64,000 nucleotides of DNA from Methylocystis echinoides (lineage in GTDB: Bacteria > Pseudomonadota > Alphaproteobacteria > Rhizobiales > Beijerinckiaceae). The position numbers and the translations under genes are program-made. Position 1 is the first letter of the stretch; every line of letters starts with the position of its first letter. Location: NCBI RefSeq assembly GCF_040687965.1, contig NZ_CP156084.1, positions 2,046,501-2,110,500 of the forward strand. The letters are read 5' to 3'. A model generated the notes under the pieces. The model was not told the origin of the DNA. It did not search any database and was given only the letters and a program-made list of their open reading frames with translations. Positions 7,163 through 51,097 of the stretch are shown here, piece by piece.

Positions 7163-10100
7163 ATGAATTATTTCAGCCGCGCAGAAGAGAGATCAGATGC
7201 GCCGGCGGGCGCATTTGTCGTTCACGACGCCGTGCCCGGTCGCCTGCGGCTGCGACATCCGGGCCTATGGAGGCGTGACGAACTCTGCGGGCGGGCCGCC
7301 GAGGCCTTGAAGCGGGTTCCTGGCGTCTTTGCGGTCAGGACGAACGCGCTGACCGGTTCCGCTCTCGTGAGATATGCGTTTCCGGCGACGGAGCGCCAGA
7401 TTCTTTCCGCGCTTGATTCCACCGTCACGGCGGCGGAGACGGCCTCGTCGCCGCCGCCAGGCGTTCCCGCGCTCGATTTCCCTTCGGACGACGTTGTGGC
7501 CCACGCCGCCCCGGTCCTGGAGCTCGTCGCGCGGCTGGAAACGCGGCTGGTCGAGGGATTGACGCTGCGAGGAGCGGCGGCGCGCGTCGCCAATTGGGGC
7601 CGGAACGAATTGCCGCGGGCAAAACCCCGTTCGGCCGCCGCCATTTTGGCCGAGCAGATGACCAGCCTGCCGATTGCGCTGCTCGCCGCCTCGGCGGCGT
7701 TGTCGGTCGCGACGGGCGGCGTGGCCGACGCCGTGATGATCGCCGCCGTGGTGCTGGTCAACGCCGGCATCGCCACGGCGACCGAACGGGAAGCGGACCG
7801 CACGATCGTCAACCTCATGGACGACGCGCCGCAGCAGGCCGTGGTCATTCGCGACGGATCGCGAAGCCTGATCGACCCTGCCGAGCTGACGGTGGGCGAT
7901 CTCATCCTCATCGAGCGCGGCGCGATGATTCCTGCGGATGCGCGACTGGTCGAGAGCGATGGACTGAGCGTCAACGAGTCGCCCTTGACGGGCGAAGCGC
8001 AGCCCGCGGTCAAGGATGCGCTGGCCCTGCTGCCCCCGGATACGGTCGTCTCGGACCGCCGCAACATGGTTTTCAGGGGCACGGCGGTCACCGGCGGCTC
8101 GGGCGCCGCCGTCGTCACGGCGGTCGGGCGGCGCACCGAGATCGGCCGGGTGCAGGAACTGCTCGGGGCCGTGCGCCCGCCGGAAACGCCGATCCAGCGC
8201 GAGCTGGGGGAGGTCGGGCGGGAGCTCGTGGCGATCAACGGCCTGATCTGCGCCTGTGTTTTCGGTCTGGGCCTGATGCGCGGTCACCCTCTTCTGCAGA
8301 CGTTGCGCAGCGCAATTTCGCTCGCCGTCGCCGCGATACCCGAAGGCCTCCCAGCCGTTGCGACGACGACGTTAGCCGTCGGCGTCCAGGACATGCGCCG
8401 GCGCAAGGTGCTGGTTCGCAAGATCGACGCGGTCGAGACGCTCGGGGCCGTCGAGATCGTCGGCCTCGACAAGACGGGCACGCTCACCGAAAACCGTATG
8501 GCGGCGGTCGCGGTCCACGTCGACGGCGCGGCCCTCGAATTGCGTGAGGGACGGTTGCTGCGCGACGGCGCGGAGATGGACGGCGCGCTGCGCGTTCAGG
8601 CGCGACGTCTGTTCGAAATTGCGGTCCTTTGCAGCGACGCCGTCGCGACGTACGGCGACGACCGCTTCGAGTTCGACGGCACGCCAACTGAAACCGCCCT
8701 GCTGGCGGCCGGCGTCGCGCTCGGCGTCGATCCGGTGGCGCTGCGTCTCTCGGCGCGGGTCCTCTCGACCGCCGCCCGCGGCGACGGACGCAAGCGAATG
8801 AGCGCCTTGCGCGAGACGGCGGAGGGCGCGCGTCTCCTTTGCGTCAAGGGAGATCCCGTGGAAGTGCTGGCGCGCTGCACGCGGCGCCTTTCCGCCGCGG
8901 GCGTCGTCACGCTCGACGAGCCGGCGCGCGCCGCAGCGCTCAGAGCCAATGAGCGCATGGCGGGCGACGCGCTGCGGGTCCTCGGCGTCGCATATTGCGA
9001 GGGCGGCGGAGATCTCCGCGACGAAAGCGATCTCGTCTGGCTCGGCCTCGCCGGCATCGCCAATCCCATCCGGGCCAGCGTGCGTCCGGCGCTGCAGCGA
9101 CTGCATCGCGCCGGCGTCCGGACGGTGATGATCACCGGCGACCAGAGCGCCACGGCCTTCGCCATCGCGCGCAGGCTCGATCTCAATGACGGCGGCGAAT
9201 TGCGCGTGCTGGAGGCGGGGCAGATCGCCAATCTTCGTCCCGAGCTGTTCGAAGCGCTGGCGGCGCAGCCGGACGTCTTCGCGCGCGTGAGCCCGGTCGA
9301 CAAGCTCAACATCGTCAAGGCGCTGCAGGCGAGCGGCCGGATCGTCGCCATGACTGGCGACGGCGTCAACGACGGGCCGGCGCTGCGCGCCGCCGACGTC
9401 GGGATCGCCATGGGCGGCGAAGGAACGGACGTTGCGCGACAGGTGGCGGACATCGTGCTCGCGAGCGACGACCTCGACGGCGTCGTCGAGGCGATCCGCC
9501 TCGGCCGCGCGACCTACGCCAATATCCGCAAGGTGCTGCGCTATCTCGTCTCGACCAACGCCTCGGAAACGTTCGTCATGCTGGGCGCGGGGCTTTTCAA
9601 TCTCCGCGAGCCGCTGACCCCTATGCAGCTCCTTTGGCTCAATCTGGCGACCGACGCCCTGCCGGCTCTCGCGCTCGGGCTCGAGCCGCCGGAAAGCGAC
9701 GTTCTCGAGCAGCCCCCGCACGACCCTGCCGCGCCGATCCTCGGGGCCGACGATTTCCGCCGCACGCTGCGCGAAGGCGCGGTGATGGCGAGCGCGGCGC
9801 TCATGGGCTATCTCAGCGTCAACGGCCTCGCCGGCGGGGCGCGGGCCAGCGCCGTCACCTTCCACGGACTGACCGTCGGCCAGTTGCTGCACGCTATCTC
9901 CTGCCGTTCGGAAACGCGGGGCGTCTCGAGCGAGATTCGCCGCCGGCCAAACCCGCGACTCTATGGCGGCGTCGCTCTGTCCCTGCTTTTTCAGGGCGCG
10001 GCGCAATTCTTGCCGCCCGCGCAGCGCCTCTTGGGGCTCGCGCCGCTCGGGCCCGGCGATCTGCTCCGCATCGGCGCGATTGCGATCGGCAGCTCGCTCC

Positions 10101-10186
10101 TGAACGACGTGATCGGCCGGGCTTCGAACCCCCGTCCGGGCGACGGGCGGCCTGTGCGCCACGATGGAGGACGGCGTGTCTCCTGA
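7163..10186 (+). CDS. P2-type cation ATPase with N-terminal HMA-like domain
   Basis: HAD-type P-type ATPase, 1007 residues, pumping a cation across the inner membrane. Residues 22-85 form an HMA-like domain with the H-x-x-P-G-R-x-R-L-R motif but no CxxC. The P2 (Ca/Mg/Na-like) core follows: TGEA actuator loop (SPLTGEAQP), IPEGLPA in helix 4, DKTGT with phosphorylated Asp436, and the GDGVND hinge (732-737). IPEGLP rather than CPC argues against a Cu/Zn P1B pump. The substrate cannot be told from sequence. The downstream MetK-like frame overlaps its end, so the two are probably co-expressed. Confidence 0.9.
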   Translation: MNYFSRAEERSDAPAGAFVVHDAVPGRLRLRHPGLWRRDELCGRAAEALKRVPGVFAVRTNALTGSALVRYAFPATERQILSALDSTVTAAETASSPPPGVPALDFPSDDVVAHAAPVLELVARLETRLVEGLTLRGAAARVANWGRNELPRAKPRSAAAILAEQMTSLPIALLAASAALSVATGGVADAVMIAAVVLVNAGIATATEREADRTIVNLMDDAPQQAVVIRDGSRSLIDPAELTVGDLILIERGAMIPADARLVESDGLSVNESPLTGEAQPAVKDALALLPPDTVVSDRRNMVFRGTAVTGGSGAAVVTAVGRRTEIGRVQELLGAVRPPETPIQRELGEVGRELVAINGLICACVFGLGLMRGHPLLQTLRSAISLAVAAIPEGLPAVATTTLAVGVQDMRRRKVLVRKIDAVETLGAVEIVGLDKTGTLTENRMAAVAVHVDGAALELREGRLLRDGAEMDGALRVQARRLFEIAVLCSDAVATYGDDRFEFDGTPTETALLAAGVALGVDPVALRLSARVLSTAARGDGRKRMSALRETAEGARLLCVKGDPVEVLARCTRRLSAAGVVTLDEPARAAALRANERMAGDALRVLGVAYCEGGGDLRDESDLVWLGLAGIANPIRASVRPALQRLHRAGVRTVMITGDQSATAFAIARRLDLNDGGELRVLEAGQIANLRPELFEALAAQPDVFARVSPVDKLNIVKALQASGRIVAMTGDGVNDGPALRAADVGIAMGGEGTDVARQVADIVLASDDLDGVVEAIRLGRATYANIRKVLRYLVSTNASETFVMLGAGLFNLREPLTPMQLLWLNLATDALPALALGLEPPESDVLEQPPHDPAAPILGADDFRRTLREGAVMASAALMGYLSVNGLAGGARASAVTFHGLTVGQLLHAISCRSETRGVSSEIRRRPNPRLYGGVALSLLFQGAAQFLPPAQRLLGLAPLGPGDLLRIGAIAIGSSLLNDVIGRASNPRPGDGRPVRHDGGRRVS

Positions 10187-33956: not shown

Positions 33957-35588
33957 CTAAGGCAGCGCGCCGCTCTCCTCCGGACAAATCCGTCCCGGCG
34001 ACAGATTATCGAGGGCGTCTGACGCGAGAATTTTTGCCAACGTCTCAAAGCTAATTGGCTTCACATAGTGGCAATCGAACCCGGCCTCCAGGGTAAGCTG
34101 GCGGTCCTTTTCGCTGCCCCATCCGCTCAGCGCGACGAGAACGATGTTTTCTCCCCCGGGGGACAAGCGTATTCGACGCGAGATTTCATAGCCGTCCATC
34201 TCTGGCATTCCAATGTCGAGGAACGCCAAGTGGGGCTTGAATGCAGCCATGCCGTCCAGCGCTTCGGCGCCGCTGTAAGCAACGCGCGTCTCGGCGCCGA
34301 GCGATTGCAACAATACGACGAAACTGTCGGCCACGTCTTTGTCATCGTCGACAACCAACACCCGACGCGAGGTCGACGGCGTGTAGGCGTTCGACTCGAC
34401 CTTTGCGCGCTCGCCCCGCGTGACGACCACGGGCAGAGATATGACAAACTCGCTGCCTTGACCGGCGCCGCCGCTGCGAGCTTCGACGCGGCCTTCGTGC
34501 ATTTCAGTTAGGCTGCGGACGAGGGCCAAGCCGATGCCGAGACCGCCCTGATCGCGGCCCCTGGCGCGATAGGATTGGGAGAAAAGTTCGAAGACGCGCG
34601 GCAGCATTCCTGGAAGAATGCCCATCCCATTGTCGCGCACGCTGACGACGGCGGTTTGCCTTTCGCGCCGCAGTGAAATTTCTATGCGTCCGCCGCGTGG
34701 GGTGTATTTCGCTGCGTTATTGATGAGATTGGCGAAGACCTGCGCGAGACGCACAGGATCGCCGTTGACCGCGAGGCGTTCGTCGCCCAGCGATACGACG
34801 AGTTCGTGCTGCTCAGACTTGATTAAAGGCTCGCTGATCTCGACCGCCCGTTCGATGATGTCCGCGAGGTTCACGACCCGCCGCTGCAGTGTGATTTTTC
34901 CCGTGCTGATGCGAGACACTTCGAGAAGATCGTCGACGAGCCGGACCAGGTGGTCAACCTGACGTTCAACCATCGAGATGAGCGAGCTGGCTTTCTCTCT
35001 GGAGGCCGCATCGTCGCCGTTCAACCTGCGCAGGACGTAGACGGCGCTGCGAATGGGAGCCAGTGGATTGCGCAGTTCATGCGCCAGCGTAGCGAGAAAC
35101 TCGTCCTTCTTACGGCCGGCTGATTCGGCGGTCTCGAGCGCATCGCGGATGATGTACTGAAGGCGCCGGGCTTCAATGGCGGCGCGCAGGGTGCTGACCA
35201 ACGTGCGTTTGGGGACGGGACGTTCGAGGAAGTTCACGTTCGGACGACGTTCGAGCCAATGCAGCGCAATGAAATCTCTCGAAGCAGCTGATCTGCCAAG
35301 GAGCATGACGATTGGCATTGACGACCAGGGCGGCTCTGAATCGATCAAAGCGTCCGGTTTTGCGGCGTCTTTGCCGGCAAGCGCTTCTTCCGCGATGAGC
35401 ACCGCGCCAGCGCCGATTGCGATCTCGCGGCGAAGCGATTCGATATCAGCGCAGACATGGGGACGAAGACCGCTGCGCAAGAGCGTTTGCTCTGCAAGGG
35501 CGGCGTCGCGCCCCTGCGGCGTGAGAATGAGGATGCGAAAGTCCGTGGCGTCGTGACTGTCGTGGGCAGCGACGGCAACTGGATTCAT
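33957..35588 (-). CDS. Hybrid sensor kinase-response regulator
   Basis: 543 residues, no membrane helix, so cytoplasmic. Order: degenerate receiver-like domain (about 15-130, ILILTPQGRDAALAEQ), HisKA with phospho-His near residue 169 (HELRNPLAPI), HATPase (NNAAKYTPRGG, GLGIGLALV), and a C-terminal receiver with Asp near 457 (LDIGMPEMDG). Its start overlaps the kaiC-like stop by 4 bp (ATGA), so it is translated with the KaiC-like protein and may act in the same signalling unit. Confidence 0.92.
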   Translation of the reverse strand: MNPVAVAAHDSHDATDFRILILTPQGRDAALAEQTLLRSGLRPHVCADIESLRREIAIGAGAVLIAEEALAGKDAAKPDALIDSEPPWSSMPIVMLLGRSAASRDFIALHWLERRPNVNFLERPVPKRTLVSTLRAAIEARRLQYIIRDALETAESAGRKKDEFLATLAHELRNPLAPIRSAVYVLRRLNGDDAASREKASSLISMVERQVDHLVRLVDDLLEVSRISTGKITLQRRVVNLADIIERAVEISEPLIKSEQHELVVSLGDERLAVNGDPVRLAQVFANLINNAAKYTPRGGRIEISLRRERQTAVVSVRDNGMGILPGMLPRVFELFSQSYRARGRDQGGLGIGLALVRSLTEMHEGRVEARSGGAGQGSEFVISLPVVVTRGERAKVESNAYTPSTSRRVLVVDDDKDVADSFVVLLQSLGAETRVAYSGAEALDGMAAFKPHLAFLDIGMPEMDGYEISRRIRLSPGGENIVLVALSGWGSEKDRQLTLEAGFDCHYVKPISFETLAKILASDALDNLSPGRICPEESGALP

Positions 35589-37075
35589 TCAAGCCCCCGT
35601 GTCCCCGGTGCGCTGCTATAAACCGGCGTGCCTGTGAGCACTCCAGTAAAGCCGGTCAAGGGTTCGCTCACTCGGACGCCGCCCGGTTGCAGAATGAACT
35701 CACGGATGGTGTGCTCGTGCTTCCCACTACGCTTCTTGACCACGGACAGCGCCTTTCGGATCGTCCCTTCCGTTTCAAAATAGCGCAGCAAAAAGACATT
35801 GTCGGCCAGAAAGCTCAAATCGATCGGCGCGGTCATCTCGGGACCGAGTATGCCGTGCTGGGTTAAGGTCAGGAGCGTCACAACCTGTCGGCGGTTTAAG
35901 TAGGAGACGAGCTCACGGATGTGCAGAAGAACCGTGGGCTCCTCCATTGCCGACTGAAGGTAGCCGTTCAAGGTGTCAATCACCACGACCTTGACATTCT
36001 CCTCCTCGACCTGCCGGACAAGAAGATGGGCAATTTGGCCAGCGCTAAGCTCCGCCGGGTCCAAATGGTCTATGTAAAGCCGTCCCGCGTCCCGCGCCCC
36101 CGCCAAGTCGAGCCCCAGACCGTGGCTCCGGGTCAAATGAGTCTCGACGCTCTCGTCGAAGAGGAGAAGAGAACTCTTTTCGGCGTGCGTGGCGGCTGCA
36201 AACGCGTAGAGCGTCGTGATCGTTGACTTGCCGATGCCCGCAGGTCCGACAACGAGGGTGCTGGAGCCACGTGGAAGCCCGCCGCCGGTGAGGGCGTCGA
36301 TCTGCCCAATTCCACACTGCAGGGGTTCAGTGCTGGCCAAGCTCACATAGCTCTGGGCGATGAGGCGCGGGTAGACGACAATCCCGCCCGTTGCGATGAC
36401 GAAATCATGCGCGCCGCTGAGATATCTGCAGCCGCGCATCTTCCTCACACGCAGCCGTCTTCGGTCCGCGCCATAAGTATAATCCGCCTGATGCAGTTCA
36501 ATTATTCCATCGGCGAGGGTCTGGCTGCGCAGGTCCTTCTCGGTCATGGAGGCTTCGTCCAGCATCACGGTCGTACACGCGCGTGCGGCCATAAAGTCGC
36601 GAATACGCTTCAGTTGCCGGCGATAAAAGGCCGGCGTCGGCGCCAAAACCCGAAGGCTCGAAATTGTGTCGAGGACGAGCAGAGTCGGCCGTAGCCGCTC
36701 GACCTCAGCGAAAAGATGCGAAAGCGTCTCTCCGACCTCTACCTCGGCCTCCGGAAAGAGCGTGTAATCAGAGGCGGCGTCCGCTTCGCGGGCGTCGTCC
36801 GCTAAGTGAGTGGTTTGGACGCCGTCCAGGCTCCAACCGTGCGAAGCCGCGATTGATCCGAGTTGCTCAGGCGTCTCTGCATTCGATGCGAGCAGACAGG
36901 TCTCGCCACGCCTGAGCGCCTCGAGCAGGAATTGCAGCGCAATCGTGGTCTTTCCGCTACCCGGAGGCCCCTCGACCAGCAATAGCGCGCCTCGCGGAAG
37001 CCCGCCCTTCAGGACCTCGTCGAGACCAGGGACGCCGGAGCGAAACCGGGGCGTTTCCAGGATGGTAACAGACAT
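35585..37075 (-). CDS. kaiC: KaiC-like double RecA-fold ATPase
   Basis: 496 residues from the ATG at 37075. Two KaiC domains, each with a P-loop: GPPGSGKTT (36-44) and GPAGIGKST (about 278-286), and Walker B-like LLVLDTISSL and VVVIDTLNGY. The C-terminal tail is short. There are no kaiA/kaiB genes nearby, as in many non-cyanobacterial KaiC systems linked to stress adaptation. An ATG at 37108 is possible, but the promoter motif at 37114-37139 would start transcription at about 37107, favouring 37075. Co-translated with a hybrid kinase. Confidence 0.9.
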   Translation of the reverse strand: MSVTILETPRFRSGVPGLDEVLKGGLPRGALLLVEGPPGSGKTTIALQFLLEALRRGETCLLASNAETPEQLGSIAASHGWSLDGVQTTHLADDAREADAASDYTLFPEAEVEVGETLSHLFAEVERLRPTLLVLDTISSLRVLAPTPAFYRRQLKRIRDFMAARACTTVMLDEASMTEKDLRSQTLADGIIELHQADYTYGADRRRLRVRKMRGCRYLSGAHDFVIATGGIVVYPRLIAQSYVSLASTEPLQCGIGQIDALTGGGLPRGSSTLVVGPAGIGKSTITTLYAFAAATHAEKSSLLLFDESVETHLTRSHGLGLDLAGARDAGRLYIDHLDPAELSAGQIAHLLVRQVEEENVKVVVIDTLNGYLQSAMEEPTVLLHIRELVSYLNRRQVVTLLTLTQHGILGPEMTAPIDLSFLADNVFLLRYFETEGTIRKALSVVKKRSGKHEHTIREFILQPGGVRVSEPLTGFTGVLTGTPVYSSAPGTRGLE

Positions 37076-37113
37076 TGCGGCGATCCAGGGTCTGTAGACG
37101 CGAAACAAACAGT

Positions 37114-37629: not shown

Positions 37630-39705
37630 ATGACGAATGGGCGAGCTGATATCGATTTTGTTGGAAGCGGCGGAGAGACCCACCAGACGGCCTCGGCGTC
37701 CATGGAACGACTGACAACCAATCACGGCGTTGCTATCTCTGATAATCAGAATTCGCTCCGAGCAGGGGGGAGAGGCCCGACGCTGCTAGAGGATTTCGCA
37801 TTCCGTGAGAAGATCTTCCATTTCGACCACGAGCGTATTCCTGAACGGATCGTCCATGCCCGCGGCTCGGGCGCTCGTGGATATTTCGAACTCACGAAGT
37901 CGCTCGCGAATTATACCCGCGCGAAAGTTTTGACTGAAGTTGGGCAAAAGACCCAAGTGTTTGTGCGATTCTCGACCGTCGCCGGCGGAGCGGGCTCCGT
38001 CGACACCCCGCGCGACGTCAGGGGCTTCGCCGTCAAGTTCTACACGAAGGAAGGAAACTGGGATCTTGTTGGAAACAACATTCCCGTTTTTTTCATCCAG
38101 GATGCCATCAAATTTCCGGATCTCATTCACTCTGTAAAAATGGAGGCCGACAGAGGGTATCCGCAGGCGGCGTCCGCTCACGATACATTCTGGGATTTCA
38201 TTAGTCTTTCGCCGGAAACCACTCATATGCTGCTGTGGGCAATGTCCGACCGCGCAATCCCACGATCGCTGCGCATGATCGAAGGGTTTGGCGTTCACAC
38301 ATTTCGTTTGACGCTGGACGGCGGCGAATCCCACTTCGTCAAATTTCATTGGCGGCCCAAGCTTGGATTGCAGTCGACCTGCTGGGATGAGGCGGTGAAG
38401 ATTGCAGGCGCAGACCCGGATTTTCATCGCCGCGATTTGTATGAAGCGATCGCGAGCGGCAATTTCCCCGAGTGGGATCTCGGCGTGCAGATCTTCACTG
38501 AAGAGCAAGCTCTGCAGTTTCCTTTTGACGTGCTCGACGCGACAAAACTCGTGCCGGAAGAAATGGTTCCGGTCCAGGTGGTTGGACACTTGGTTTTGAA
38601 TGAGAATCCGGACAATTTTTTCGCCGAAACAGAACAGGTGGCGTTTCTGCCATCAAACATGCCGCCCGGGATCGAAGCGTCCGAAGACCCATTGCTTCAA
38701 GGTCGCTTCTTTTCCTATCAGGATACGCAACTCTCGCGTCTGGGAAGCACGAATTTTCATCAGATCCCGGTCAATCGCCCAAAGGGGTGCCCGTTTCACA
38801 ATATGCAGCGAGACGGCCACATGCAGACGATGGTTCCCATGGGCCGGGCCAACTATGAACCAAACAGCCTTGCAGAAGCGGGCGAACCGGGTGGGCCGCG
38901 TGAGACGCCGTCAGGATATCGGACACACCCTGTCCCGACCGAGGGCGTCAAGGCGCGGGTGCGTTCGGAGACTTTCGCCGACCATTACTCCCAGGCGCGG
39001 CTCTTTTACCGCTCACAGTCAAATGTCGAGCAGCAACACATTGCATCCGCAATCGTCTTTGAACTTTCGAAGGTTCAGATTCCCGCTATCAGAGGCCGGA
39101 TCCTACAAAACCTGCTCAATGTCGATGTTACTCTCGTCGAGGGGGTATCGAGGGGGCTCGGCATAAAGGCCCCGACCGAACCCGCGCCGCGCGCCGCCGA
39201 AATCGTCGACATGACGCCGTCGCCGGCGTTGCGTCTGATTGATAAATATCCGCCGACGTTGGAGGGTCGCTGTATTGGAATCCTCGTTACGGACGGCGCA
39301 GACGGGAAGCTGCTGGAGGCGTTGATAAGCGCCGTCACAAAAGCCCGCGCGAGCGCTAAAATCGTCTCCTCGAGGATCGGTGGAGTGATGCTGAAGGACG
39401 GTTCGACCCTTCAAGCCGATGCGCAACTTCAGGGAAGCCCGTCGGCGATATTTGACGCTGTGGTCCTGCTCGTCGCCAAAGAAGGCGCTTCAGCGCTGCT
39501 CGCAGATCGCGCCGCTATTAATTTCGTGAGCGACGCCTATGCCCATTTGAAGGCGATTGCGGTCACGCCAGAAGCCAGGGCTATTCTGGACAAGGCCGAC
39601 GTCAAGGCAGACGAGGGCGTCGTAGACGCCTCGAAGGCCGCCGCCTTCGTGAAGGCCGCAGCAAAACGCTACTATGCACGTGAAGCGACGATCCATGCTC
39701 CGTAA
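37630..39705 (+). CDS. katE: Large-subunit catalase (KatE/HPII type)
   Basis: 691 residues, behind GGGGAGCCGAAA. Monofunctional heme catalase decomposing H2O2. Catalytic His lies in RIPERIVHARGSGA; FVRFSTVAGGAGSVDT and the NNIPVFFIQDAIKFPD segment are family signatures; the proximal Tyr region is FSYQDTQLSRLG. The extra C-terminal domain (about 545-690) is the DJ-1/PfpI-like domain that marks large-subunit clade-2 catalases. Divergent from the kaiC operon and probably under general-stress control. Confidence 0.95.
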   Translation: MTNGRADIDFVGSGGETHQTASASMERLTTNHGVAISDNQNSLRAGGRGPTLLEDFAFREKIFHFDHERIPERIVHARGSGARGYFELTKSLANYTRAKVLTEVGQKTQVFVRFSTVAGGAGSVDTPRDVRGFAVKFYTKEGNWDLVGNNIPVFFIQDAIKFPDLIHSVKMEADRGYPQAASAHDTFWDFISLSPETTHMLLWAMSDRAIPRSLRMIEGFGVHTFRLTLDGGESHFVKFHWRPKLGLQSTCWDEAVKIAGADPDFHRRDLYEAIASGNFPEWDLGVQIFTEEQALQFPFDVLDATKLVPEEMVPVQVVGHLVLNENPDNFFAETEQVAFLPSNMPPGIEASEDPLLQGRFFSYQDTQLSRLGSTNFHQIPVNRPKGCPFHNMQRDGHMQTMVPMGRANYEPNSLAEAGEPGGPRETPSGYRTHPVPTEGVKARVRSETFADHYSQARLFYRSQSNVEQQHIASAIVFELSKVQIPAIRGRILQNLLNVDVTLVEGVSRGLGIKAPTEPAPRAAEIVDMTPSPALRLIDKYPPTLEGRCIGILVTDGADGKLLEALISAVTKARASAKIVSSRIGGVMLKDGSTLQADAQLQGSPSAIFDAVVLLVAKEGASALLADRAAINFVSDAYAHLKAIAVTPEARAILDKADVKADEGVVDASKAAAFVKAAAKRYYAREATIHAP

Positions 39706-47380: not shown

Positions 47381-50300
47381 ATGATGCAGGGACTGACGAC
47401 CCTCGAGGCGCGCGCGCGCCTCGCCGAATTCGGCCCGAACACACTGCCAGAAGCGCGACCGCCCTCCTTCGCAGCGGTTTTCCTCAGACAGTTTCTCAGT
47501 CCGCTGATTTACATTCTCGTCGCCGCGGCCGCCGTTGCGATGACGATCGGCGACGCAAAAGACGCCGCTTTCATCGGCGTCGTATTGATCGTCAACGGGA
47601 TTATCGGCGCGGTTCAGGAATATTCGGCGGGTCAGGCGGCGGCCGCGCTGCGCCAGAAGGATCAGCCCCATGCGCTCGTGTTGCGCGACGGCGTCCAGCA
47701 GGAAATTGACGCGCGCGATCTCGTGCCGAGCGACATCGTCTTCCTCGAGGCCGGACGCCGCGTGCCTGCGGACATGCGCCTCATCGAGACGGTTGATCTG
47801 CGCTGCGATGAATCGCTGCTCACAGGCGAATCTCTCCCAGTGAAAAAGCGCGCCGCGGCCGACGTGAAGCCGGCGCCGCGCGACGGGATGGCCTTCGCCG
47901 GGTCGATGGTCATCCGTGGGCGCGGCGTCGGCGAAGCGACAGCGACGGGTCGCGCGACGGAGGTTGGCAAAATCGCCGGAGAGCTCATCAAGCCGTCTGC
48001 GTCTCAGCCGCCGCTGATCATCCGAATGGAGCGCTTCTCCAAGCTCATCGCGATTCTGGTCGCCGTCGCCGTCGCGATTCTGATGATTGTCGGTTATTTG
48101 CGCCACATCGGCCTCGTGGACCTTTTCATGATGGCGGTCGGACTCGCCGTCTCGGCCATTCCGGAAGGACTTCCGGTCGCGATCGCCGTGGCGCTGGCGA
48201 TCGGCATGCGGCGCATGGCCAAAGCCAATGTGATCGTGCGGAAGATGGCGGCGGTCGAGTCGCTCGGCTCCTGCACCCTCATCGCCACCGACAAGACCGG
48301 CACGCTCACCCGCAATGAGCTCACCGTCACCGAAATCGTCTTGGCCGACGGATCGGCTCTCTCCCTTCAGCCGGACGAGGGCGTCGAATCCTATTGCTTC
48401 CGCGGCGTAGCGCCCAATGAACAGGCCGATCTCCTGCTCGCGGCGCTGCTGCGTGCGGCGGCGCTCCCCAATGAAGCAGAGATCCGGCGCGAGAGGGAAG
48501 AGGTTCGGGGCGTAGGCGACACCGTCGACGTCGCCCTGCTCGTCGCCGCGCACCGAAGCGGCGTCGGGCATGAGGAGCTCAGAGCGCGCTATCCGCTGGT
48601 GAAGCGCATCCCCTACGAGCCAGACCTCAAATATGCGGCGTCCTTCCATCTCCACGAAGAGAAGGACGCCGTGCGCGTCTTCGTGAAGGGCGCCCCCGAG
48701 ACGTTGATCGCCATGGCCGGCCGGATGGATGTCGGCGGCGCGCTGGCGCCAATCGACCGCGACGCCCTCTCTCGACAGAAGGACGCGCTTTCGGCCAGAG
48801 GGCTGCGCGTTCTGGCCTTCGCCGAGGGCGAAATCGCGCCGGAGCCGGACCATGGCTATGGCCCGCGCCATCTCGAAAATCTCGTGTTTCTCGGCCTCGT
48901 CGGCATGCATGATCCGCTGCGGCCGGACGTGCGGCGCGCCATCGGCGCGTGTCATGACGCCGGCGTCGTTGTGACGATGGTGACCGGCGACGCCCCCGGC
49001 ACGGCCGCGGCCATCGCCAAAGAGGCGGGCATGGCTTTTTCCCCGGACCAGATCGTGACGGGCGACGCGGTGAAGCGCGCAGAGGAAGCGGGAGAAAGCG
49101 CACTCGACGCGTTGACCCGCCGCGCGCGGATCTACGCCCGCGTCGAGCCGATCCAGAAGCTCGCAATCGTCCTGTCGCTGACGCGCAACGGCCATTTCGT
49201 CGCCGTCACGGGCGATGGGGTGAATGACGCGCCGGCGCTCAAACATGCGCATGTCGGCGTCGCAATGGGCAAGCAGGGGACGGACGTCGCAAAGGAAAGC
49301 GCCGACATCATCATCGCCGACGATAATTTCGCATCGATCGTGCGCGGCGTTTTCGAAGGCCGCGTCGCCTACGCCAATATCCGCAAGGTCATCTTCCTTC
49401 TGGTTTCGACCGGCGCAGCCGAGCTGCTTCTCTTCCTGCTCGCGATCCCGGCCGGCATGCCCATGCCCCTGTTGCCCGTGCAATTGCTGTGGCTCAACCT
49501 CGTCACCAATGGCGTTCAGCATGTCGCGCTGGCCGCCGAAAAGCCGGAGGGCGACGAGCTGACCTATCCGCCGCGCAAGCCGGAGGAGCCGATCTTCGAC
49601 CGGGTGATGATCACGCGCAACGCCTATTCGGCGCTCGTCATGGCCGGAGTCGGCTTCGGCCTGTTTTACTGGCTGATCGCTCAGGGCGCCGACGCCGATC
49701 ACGCGCGGAACCTGCTGCTTCTGCTTTTCGTCATCTTTGAAAACTTCCAGGCGCTGAATGCGCGTTCGGAACGTCATTCGCTCTTCCACAGGGGGCTTTT
49801 CTCCAGTCCGCTGTTGGTTGCGAGCGTCTTCGGCGCGCAGGCGCTTCATCTAGCGGCGTCGCATGTCCCCGGCCTCGCCGATACGCTGCGAATCTGGCCG
49901 CCGACGGTCGCGGAATGGGGCGCGTTGCTCGCCGCGGGCTCGTCGCTCCTCCTCGTGATGGAGCTGGAAAAATGGTGGACGGAGCGTCACAAGCGGCCGA
50001 AGTCGCGGCGAGGGCCTGCGGCTGTGACCGTCGCGTCCGCCCGCCTTGGCCGCTACGCGGCCGTCGCGGCGAGCGCCGCGCTTTTCGTGACGGCGGTCGT
50101 GGGCGGAGCGCTTTATTGGCGAACGATTCGGCAAGGCGCGCCTCATGAATTTGCGACGGTCGAGCGCGGCGAGATCGTCGGCGTTGCCGAAGTGGCGGGC
50201 GTCGTCGTTTCCGCGCCGCCGGCCGAGGCGGCTGCGCCTGTCGCCGGGAAGATCGAGGCTGTCGCCTGCAACAACGGCGAGCGCGTCGAAGCGGGGCGGG

Positions 50301-51097
50301 TCTGCGCCAGGATCATTCCGCCTGACCGCCAAGCCGAAATCGACCGCGCGCGCAGGGCCCTCTCTGTCGCGCAGGCGGCGCAGCGCAAGAGCGCCACCGC
50401 GGTCGACCGTGCGGCGAGGGCGCGCCCCAGCGCCGCGATTGCTCGCGCAAAGGCCCGTCTGGCGCAAGCGCAGACCGTGACGGTCCAGCGCGAAGCGGCG
50501 TTGCGCGCGGCGCAGGAGAAGGGCGCGCCGGTCATCGCGCCGATCGGCGGGACCATTGGCGAGAGCCGCCTGGAGACCCGCCGCGCAACGCATGTGGGCG
50601 AGCGGCTTTTTCAGGTCACGCCAGCGGAAAGAACCTTGCGCATTGAAGCTGTCGCCCCCGACGCGGGCGCGCCGCCGCCGCTCGGCGCCCCGGCGACGGT
50701 GAGTTTTACTAGGGATCCGTCGCAGCGCGTTAAAGGCGAGGTGCTCGCAACCCTTCAAGGAAAGGACGGCCCGAGGATCGTCATTGAGACCCGGACCCTC
50801 CCTTCCAGTGCGCAACCCGGCGCGACGGCGTTGCTGCACATAGAGCTTGACCGCAGAAAAGATGTCCTGCGCGTTCCGCGCCATGCCCTGCAATACGCGC
50901 CCGCAGGCAGCGCGTCGCTGGAGCCGCCGCCCGCCGGATGGGCGCGTGTGTGGGCGTGGCGCAACGGGGTCGCGGTTCCGGTCGTCATCCAGCCGGGCCT
51001 CGATGACGGCGTATTTGTCGAGATCAAGGCCGGGGCGATCGACGCGGGCGATCAGGTGGTCGTCAACGGGGGCGGGCTGGCGTCTCAGACACTTTGA
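47381..51097 (+). CDS. P2-type ATPase fused to MacA/HlyD-type periplasmic adaptor
   Basis: 1238 residues from the ATG at 47381 (47384 is equally good), behind AGGAGC. Residues 1-885 are a complete P2-type cation ATPase: LTGESLPV actuator, IPEGLPVAIAVALAIG, DKTGT (Asp304), KGAPETLI nucleotide loop, GDGVND (611-616) and ten hydrophobic spans. A basic linker (RHKRPKSRRG) leads to an extra helix (about 888-913). Residues 914-1238 form a membrane-fusion protein: lipoyl half-motifs (APVAGKIEAVACNNGERV; APIGGTIGESRLETRR) around an Ala/Arg/Gln helical hairpin, a beta-barrel part and a MacA-like end (LRVPRHALQY, IDAGDQVVVNG). The adaptor should lie in the periplasm. No separate outer-membrane channel gene is adjacent. 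Confidence 0.9.
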   Translation: MMQGLTTLEARARLAEFGPNTLPEARPPSFAAVFLRQFLSPLIYILVAAAAVAMTIGDAKDAAFIGVVLIVNGIIGAVQEYSAGQAAAALRQKDQPHALVLRDGVQQEIDARDLVPSDIVFLEAGRRVPADMRLIETVDLRCDESLLTGESLPVKKRAAADVKPAPRDGMAFAGSMVIRGRGVGEATATGRATEVGKIAGELIKPSASQPPLIIRMERFSKLIAILVAVAVAILMIVGYLRHIGLVDLFMMAVGLAVSAIPEGLPVAIAVALAIGMRRMAKANVIVRKMAAVESLGSCTLIATDKTGTLTRNELTVTEIVLADGSALSLQPDEGVESYCFRGVAPNEQADLLLAALLRAAALPNEAEIRREREEVRGVGDTVDVALLVAAHRSGVGHEELRARYPLVKRIPYEPDLKYAASFHLHEEKDAVRVFVKGAPETLIAMAGRMDVGGALAPIDRDALSRQKDALSARGLRVLAFAEGEIAPEPDHGYGPRHLENLVFLGLVGMHDPLRPDVRRAIGACHDAGVVVTMVTGDAPGTAAAIAKEAGMAFSPDQIVTGDAVKRAEEAGESALDALTRRARIYARVEPIQKLAIVLSLTRNGHFVAVTGDGVNDAPALKHAHVGVAMGKQGTDVAKESADIIIADDNFASIVRGVFEGRVAYANIRKVIFLLVSTGAAELLLFLLAIPAGMPMPLLPVQLLWLNLVTNGVQHVALAAEKPEGDELTYPPRKPEEPIFDRVMITRNAYSALVMAGVGFGLFYWLIAQGADADHARNLLLLLFVIFENFQALNARSERHSLFHRGLFSSPLLVASVFGAQALHLAASHVPGLADTLRIWPPTVAEWGALLAAGSSLLLVMELEKWWTERHKRPKSRRGPAAVTVASARLGRYAAVAASAALFVTAVVGGALYWRTIRQGAPHEFATVERGEIVGVAEVAGVVVSAPPAEAAAPVAGKIEAVACNNGERVEAGRVCARIIPPDRQAEIDRARRALSVAQAAQRKSATAVDRAARARPSAAIARAKARLAQAQTVTVQREAALRAAQEKGAPVIAPIGGTIGESRLETRRATHVGERLFQVTPAERTLRIEAVAPDAGAPPPLGAPATVSFTRDPSQRVKGEVLATLQGKDGPRIVIETRTLPSSAQPGATALLHIELDRRKDVLRVPRHALQYAPAGSASLEPPPAGWARVWAWRNGVAVPVVIQPGLDDGVFVEIKAGAIDAGDQVVVNGGGLASQTL

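Follow-up and report, generated by a model that had tools for sequence, protein, structure and literature searches.

The window analysed here, a stretch of 64,000 nucleotides from Methylocystis echinoides (contig NZ_CP156084.1, positions 2,046,501 to 2,110,500), contains at 47381-51097 (+) a gene in which a type IIA (P2A) P-type ATPase is continued in the same frame by a MacA-like periplasmic adaptor module. The frame is single, starts with ATG and encodes 1238 amino acid residues; from stop to stop it spans 1303 codons. Such adaptors are familiar from RND, ABC, and MFS export systems. The gene possesses the following features, with the basis for each in brackets:

47381..49978 (+), type IIA (P2A) ATPase part, residues 1-866 (PF00690, PF00122, PF13246, PF00702, PF00689; motifs; Sinorhizobium matches end at about residue 877)
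49979..50035 (+), basic linker, residues 867-885, including KRPKSRR (sequence)
50036..50134 (+), added helix, hydropathy peak at residues 893-911 (hydropathy; model helix 886-918)
50222..50317 (+), first lipoyl half, residues ~948-979 (model strands; alignment A2)
50267..50269 (+), Cys963, first Cys of C-x11-C (invariant column C66 of A2; 42/42 P-type fusions)
50303..50305 (+), Cys975, second Cys of C-x11-C (invariant column C78 of A2; 42/42 P-type fusions)
50327..50515 (+), alpha-helical hairpin, residues ~983-1045, shorter than that of most aligned relatives (model helices; alignment gap)
50525..50623 (+), second lipoyl half, residues ~1049-1081 (model; HlyD_3 from residue 1051)
50636..50878 (+), beta-barrel domain, residues ~1086-1166, absent in some relatives (model; alignment A2)
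50879..51094 (+), membrane-proximal-like C-terminus, residues 1167-1238, absent in many relatives (RND_mfp to 1230; alignment; predicted local distance difference test, pLDDT, <50)

The first-pass annotation of this DNA described one uninterrupted frame with a complete P2-type ATPase, and motifs and domain matches agree. The type IIA assignment is based upon DKTGT at residue 304, the GDGVND hinge at 611, and PEGLP in M4 at 261, while Pfam matches to Cation_ATPase_N, E1-E2_ATPase, Cation_ATPase, Hydrolase, and Cation_ATPase_C cover residues 3-866. The ten membrane spans ascribed to this part are consistent with the Cation_ATPase_C coverage; the hydropathy scan merged or missed some of them and gave no count of ten. 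M6 reads NLVTNG, the usual sequence being NLVTDG. The NCBI equivalog models for Ca2+ pumps are not reached (TIGR01522, 561 bits against 798; TIGR01116, 507 against 703), so the nature of the transported ion is something we infer at most. The basic linker (KRPKSRR from residue 871) and the single extra helix, strongly hydrophobic and with a clear peak, lie where they had been placed.

Adaptor profiles were run against the C-terminal part. HlyD_3 matches residues 1051-1122 above its Pfam cut-off (E 2.4e-8; 35.1 bits against 22.2); RND_mfp (TIGR01730, NCBIfam; residues 925-1230, E 5.1e-24) is significant but below its cut-off (84.8 against 94.9), as is HlyD_D23 (24.8 against 30), which exceeds its own in several relatives. 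The AlphaFold2 model of residues 885-1238, used for fold and domain order only, is of moderate confidence (pLDDT 60, falling below 50 in the last 80 residues; predicted template-modelling score, pTM, 0.36). It reveals a helix, a half-lipoyl domain, a hairpin, a second half-lipoyl domain, and a beta-barrel, which is the adaptor order. The top Foldseek match is a MacAB-TolC chain (9qgy_G, E 6.6e-13), with a template-modelling score (TM) of only 0.24, and 50/50 of the matches listed are, by title, adaptors or chains of adaptor-containing pump complexes. Profiles, moderate model, and low-TM matches are congruent with the module as first described, with both lipoyl halves, a hairpin, and a MacA-like C-terminus.

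A survey for the same fusion found at least one fused gene in 32 of 39 Methylocystis genomes (tally of loci); none was confirmed in the other seven (G002, G003, G008, G009, G013, G015, and G020). A frameshift or assembly join was rejected, because the fused frame recurs across many genomes, named records included, and a fusion peculiar to one strain is likewise at odds with at least 32 of the 39. The genome of the window (G000) has three fused genes, one of them interrupted: the second copy, on another replicon (G000:C2:233571-237277; L002 and L003), is 89% and 77% identical in the matched parts, is broken by a stop, and has intact relatives elsewhere, and the third paralogue encodes 1138 residues. 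The collection yields 42 distinct P-type ATPase frames with a long C-terminal extension, and in 42/42 this is an adaptor with two Cys 12 positions apart. The closest fused plasmid records are those of Methylocystis iwaonis, and a scan of named genomes gave eight loci, including M. silviterrae, M. suflitae, and M. rosea SV97. In two annotated plasmid records (M. iwaonis pSS37A-Re-1; M. rosea GW6 pGW6_1) the architecture is hidden because the fused genes are named only "HAD-IC family P-type ATPase."

Wider surveys, in which genomes were drawn evenly and few candidates scored per genome, suggest a narrow distribution. Among the matches listed for the order (297 genomes), both parts share one frame only in Methylocystis (G000 and G010), the remainder being ATPase alone or adaptor alone; among those listed for the class (289) and phylum (398), no module frame of more than 1000 codons lies outside Methylocystis; and among those listed for the family (298 genomes, 43 genera), fused frames occur in three genera only (g1, g64, and g66), of which g64 is perhaps Methylocapsa-like and g66 perhaps Methylosinus. 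A plasmid of Methylocapsa polymorpha carries the module and the later part of a P1B ATPase in one 934-codon frame, the module being 71-75% identical in DNA to the five best g64 places. It may not be intact, as the start of the ATPase seems to sit in another frame. M. polymorpha pRX1 (L190) has four successive genes on a single strand, for an AI-2E protein, a universal stress protein, a P1B-module fusion, and a P-type ATPase; G999 (L178) has a 971-codon frame with an adaptor lacking the Cys pair. No account of an adaptor fused to a P-type ATPase was found among the matches listed from the titles and abstract openings of the open-licence PMC literature.

Searches with the adaptor sequence reveal the same module at the C-terminus of P2A, P3A-like, and hemerythrin-bearing P1B ATPases, AI-2E+P2A proteins, F1 alpha subunits, CyoD, and AHSA1 proteins. 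Judged by these matches, it is common to several ion-pump families, a point that the first-pass annotation missed. The 77 fused sequences with an assigned host comprise 44 P2A, 3 AI-2E+P2A, and 30 others. The hosts apart from simple P2A ATPases include:

L082, L118, L128, L235, L239: P1B ATPases with a hemerythrin domain and the module
L084, L130, L231: ATPases with P3A-like spacing, without Cation_ATPase_C, and the module
L081:5787-10586 (-), L065:5620-10515 (-), L082:12168-16967 (+): AI-2E transporter, P2A ATPase, and adaptor, 1600-1632 codons
L112:6294-8915 (-), L123:2233-4827 (+), L125:2119-4743 (+): F-type ATPase alpha subunit, helix, and module, three genomes
L111, L117, L134, L135, L136, L140, L225, L226, L228: quinol-oxidase subunit IV (CyoD) and module
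L115:6097-7695 (-), L227:1377-2987 (+), L229:1850-3412 (-): AHSA1-domain proteins and module

Further F-type ATPase-like frames lie beside the fused alpha subunit in L112; judging by the gene order, it may belong to an N-ATPase. With three alpha subunits per F1, three modules would be present. A COX1 gene lies just upstream of the CyoD fusion in both loci scanned there (L111 and L117), and the AHSA1 fusion of L115 adjoins an ABC ATPase gene.

The adaptor had been placed on the periplasmic side, and as a prediction this is supported by hydropathy and by the way in which the helix follows host type. A stretch with hydropathy of at least 1.6 precedes the module in 37/44 P2A, 3/3 AI-2E+P2A, 9/12 P1B, 2/4 P3A, 2/3 alpha subunit, and 2/3 AHSA1 fusions; at a threshold of 1.3 the counts rise to 42/44, 3/3, 12/12, 4/4, 3/3, and 3/3. 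CyoD has three helices and a periplasmic C-terminus, and its fusions have only three helices in 9/9. An extra helix with hosts whose C-terminus should be cytoplasmic, and none with CyoD, is the pattern that selection for a periplasmic module would predict, and hydropathy suggests this side for the module.

The module is marked by its Cys pair. C-x11-C lies in the first lipoyl half of 62/62 fused genes found by profile (61 by script, L132 by eye), a count to be read with the profile in mind, which was built from Cys-bearing fusions and might overlook a fused module that scores lower for want of the pair. In the 20 rows of alignment A2 the pair is invariant, whereas mean column identity of the module is only 35%. 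The pair also occurs in Methylocystis adaptors that stand alone beside an ABC transporter frame (L103-L107; in L103 Pfam identifies this frame as MacB) and in a few standalone adaptors elsewhere (L174; plasmids of Bradyrhizobium and Burkholderia); among the best adaptors of the class and phylum samples it occurs in only 2/42, one of them from Methylocystis.

When 84 modules are arranged in a quick tree, 63 fused rows and L133 fall on one branch, with a support of 96 by the Shimodaira-Hasegawa-like approximate likelihood-ratio test (SH-aLRT), nested inside a Cys-pair branch of 70 rows (SH-aLRT 99). SH-aLRT is the only support calculated for this quick method, and both Cys columns were kept in. 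The tree left out L002, L137, L138, L141, and adaptors weaker than 1e-45, thinned 44 adaptors without the pair to 14, and includes L129, whose ATPase part is cut off, hand-labelled as P2A. Host labels require at least 12 changes on it, against a mean of 41.7 when shuffled. L133 itself (L133:3731-4915, +) is a module with a short N-terminal part that clusters with P1B modules. Because the fused rows form one branch within the Cys-pair branch, the simplest reading would be that one MacA-type adaptor was fused once and that its descendants then moved among unrelated hosts.

The adaptor is under purifying selection, if less strictly than the ATPase, the ratio of nonsynonymous to synonymous substitution rates (dN/dS) being 0.22-0.55 in 11/11 pairs against 0.08-0.20 for the ATPase; the pairs were hand-picked, close, and partly overlapping.

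The sequence R-x3-L-x6-S/T at the hairpin tip is given as the TolC-docking motif in PMC3391258. It is present in 6/77 fused modules (4/44 P2A, 2/3 AI-2E+P2A, and 0/30 others) against 9/11 standalone Cys-pair adaptors, a comparison that starts from Cys-pair-bearing sequences and so says nothing on the frequency of the pair. The standalone set includes L207, L215, L219, and L221, counted as such, and fifteen further frames were left without a host, the host part lying outside the stretch or being unscanned (RL[ST] in 2 of them). With Ala allowed, the counts become 11/77 and 11/11. Counted without regard to position, the motif is no commoner than chance in P2A fusions (4/39, with 4.06 expected from shuffling), while standalone adaptors lacking the pair have it in 21/34 (2.9 expected). 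It is absent from the hairpin of the window protein, as inspected in the hairpin sequence. Direct comparison finds outer-membrane factor (OEP) genes near 4/39 fused loci, and clustering near 5; this and the neighbour counts below refer to one representative per family and to stretches of at most ~8 kb, often ending at contig ends, and are lower bounds.

We propose that the module is a built-in periplasmic accessory subunit, the descendant of a Cys-pair MacA, which assembles or regulates ion pumps, and give this reading an even chance of being right. It builds on what can be read directly from the genes, namely the fusion itself and its repeated appearance on unrelated hosts, the constancy of the Cys pair, the rarity of the TolC motif, and purifying selection; oligomerization and an effect on pump activity would be further steps. 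The eleventh helix would anchor the module beside the ATPase, leaving it in the periplasm or in the lumen of intracytoplasmic membranes, where it could serve as a partner subunit of the pump as MacA does for MacB. MacA works as a hexamer, and the ATPase of reconstituted MacB depends on intact MacA (PMC5985334). The lipoyl and hairpin parts might accordingly be imagined to associate with one another and to touch the pump, holding pumps in assemblies, modulating their turnover, or both. The Cys pair is probably a disulfide, which would be structural or redox-responsive, and TolC docking would mostly have been given up by fused modules.

Several observations weigh against this proposal. In 10/11 pairs the adaptor has a dN/dS 2.5 to 7 times as high as the ATPase fused to it, and the AHSA1 host is no ion pump. 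The beta-barrel and membrane-proximal domains contact the transporter in known pumps, yet both are absent in 6/20 aligned fused rows, the whole C-terminus being kept in only ~6/20 (both by eye); with these domains missing, an allosteric contact is not obvious in some fused forms. A full-length model (residues 39-1238) is too poor to judge contact between module and ATPase (pLDDT 38, pTM 0.27). A link to efflux is also left open by RND or OEP neighbours, RND genes lying near 10/39 fused loci, six of which share one similar arrangement. In L047:8639-14808 the fused ATPase has an OEP gene 129 bases downstream and, beyond it, adaptor and RND frames, all on its own strand, and in L009:3805-13337 separate adaptor and AcrB-type RND genes precede the third G000 fused ATPase on one strand, with a divergent OEP gene.

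Among the alternatives, it is conceivable, if unlikely, that the Cys pair is a site for a metal, e.g., Cu(I), or a thiol ligand, and that the module, working at the periplasmic face, senses or buffers this ligand or exchanges it with the pump. Both Cys are invariant, P1B metal pumps and a haem-copper oxidase subunit are among the hosts, genes for SmbP-like small metal-binding proteins lie near 5/39 fused loci, and copper is central to methanotrophs. However, the invariant and near-invariant columns of the 20 rows hold no further candidate ligand (His, Met, or Asp), and standalone adaptors encoded beside an ABC transporter, for which we know of no metal role, already have the pair. Two Cys in an oxidizing periplasm, moreover, more often form a disulfide.

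The model favoured in the first-pass annotation, a tripartite system driven by the P-type ATPase, supposes that the fused adaptor hexamerizes and docks onto a TolC-like channel, giving the cation a one-step route out of the cell. The adaptor fold with its hairpin is what such a pump would call for; a hairpin of 97 residues, as in 11/11 standalone Cys-pair adaptors, is kept in 22/44 P2A fusions, and the docking motif in two of the three AI-2E+P2A fusions. In 6/39 loci (L009, L070, L076, L077, L079, and L080) the fused ATPase comes after a similar RND gene that has the same orientation, and the arrangement in L047 points the same way. The idea fits poorly nonetheless, because the docking motif is rare in fused modules and OEP genes are rarely near; the hairpin of the window protein is short, and the module is also carried by the F1 alpha subunit and CyoD, which are not known as exporters. 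The 20 window frames scanned include no ABC, RND, or MFS partner gene and no outer-membrane factor gene, though a channel may be encoded elsewhere. The tripartite model is therefore weakened by these counts, and we consider it rather improbable as a general account, while it may still apply to some subfamilies.

That the tail is a passenger, fused by accident and ratchet-kept with little function, is improbable, for although the adaptor evolves faster than the ATPase, its domains are shrinking, seven of the 39 genus genomes lack a confirmed fused gene, and some loci are plasmid-borne, dN/dS is below 1 in every pair, the Cys pair is invariant, frames stay open in dozens of genes, and the module has been grafted onto unrelated hosts with consistent topology.

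Returning to the accessory subunit, a low-oxygen or energy-stress setting is weakly suggested by the hosts themselves and by universal stress protein genes, which lie near 4/39 fused loci and, together with BON-domain genes, near an unfused Sinorhizobium homologue. The published Myxococcus oxygen regulon (PMC11841059) involves another P-type ATPase and offers no more than a loose parallel. A bolder form of the proposal, which we offer as a long shot, is that in methanotrophic Alphaproteobacteria the homologous hairpin-lipoyl modules bring together three classes of P-type ATPase, quinol oxidase, and an N-ATPase, the last probably for Na+. Through their modules, in the periplasm or the intracytoplasmic membrane lumen, these pumps would co-assemble as mixed supercomplexes, and the Cys pair would be the redox switch by which ion pumping is tuned to oxygen supply.

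By comparison with known systems, the module resembles MacA of MacAB-TolC, its top Foldseek match, in the order of helix, lipoyl half, hairpin, lipoyl half, and barrel, and it shares both the Cys pair and a tree branch with the MacA variant encoded beside an ABC transporter (L103-L107). It differs in being the C-terminus of an ion pump rather than the neighbour of an ABC transporter, and fused modules are mostly without the TolC motif and often without the barrel and membrane-proximal domain. The ATPase part is ~63% identical over residues 4-877 to unfused type IIA ATPases of Sinorhizobium and Rhizobium (e.g., WP_014857930.1), but these genes end at about residue 877 without an adaptor tail, and no adaptor gene was found among the annotated neighbours of the unfused homologue in two records with incomplete gene tables. 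Movement of an adaptor region into another protein family is described for adaptors and outer-membrane auxiliary proteins of Alphaproteobacteria (PMC2850547); that exchange of a central domain is between envelope proteins and apparently not onto ion pumps.

The beta subunit of Na,K-ATPase and KdpC likewise combine a single helix with an extracytoplasmic domain that partners a P-type ATPase, but they are separate, unrelated polypeptides that are not known from other pump families. The metal-binding terminal domains of P1B ATPases are accessory domains fused to the pump, as here, yet they lie on the cytosolic side, whereas the window module is predicted to be periplasmic and MacA-derived. On present sequences the architecture appears to be new, with each part singly in a known family; its function we infer.

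If the module does control or assemble pumps, it would add a novel type of accessory part to bioenergetics and may account for the arrangement of ion pumps in methanotroph membranes. Its presence on unrelated ion pumps hints at a common, so far undescribed way to organize or control them. With an adaptor leaving the tripartite world, it also becomes testable which adaptor parts are important once TolC is gone.

Some neighbouring genes deserve mention. In L044 and L045 an OEP gene lies ~5 kb from the fused gene, within an MFS/HlyD/outer-membrane gene set where annotated, and on M. rosea pGW6_1 a set of outer-membrane, adaptor, and RND genes lies ~8 kb upstream of the fused gene, beyond the stretch counted. 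In L048, L052, L053, L055, L057, L059, and L066 an ArsC-like gene (56-176 bases upstream) and a SIMPL-domain gene precede the fused ATPase on the same strand. Within the window, a link to polyamines or amines was considered and dropped: there is an amine-oxidase gene nearby, on the opposite strand, as well as a spermine-synthase-like gene, but nothing connects either to a type IIA ATPase. The window also carries a KaiC-type ATPase gene at 35585-37108 (-), in which two stretches are matched, a large catalase gene at 37630-39705 (+), and, at 7163-10186 (+), a second P2A ATPase, which begins with a heavy-metal-associated domain (HMA_2) and has no adaptor.

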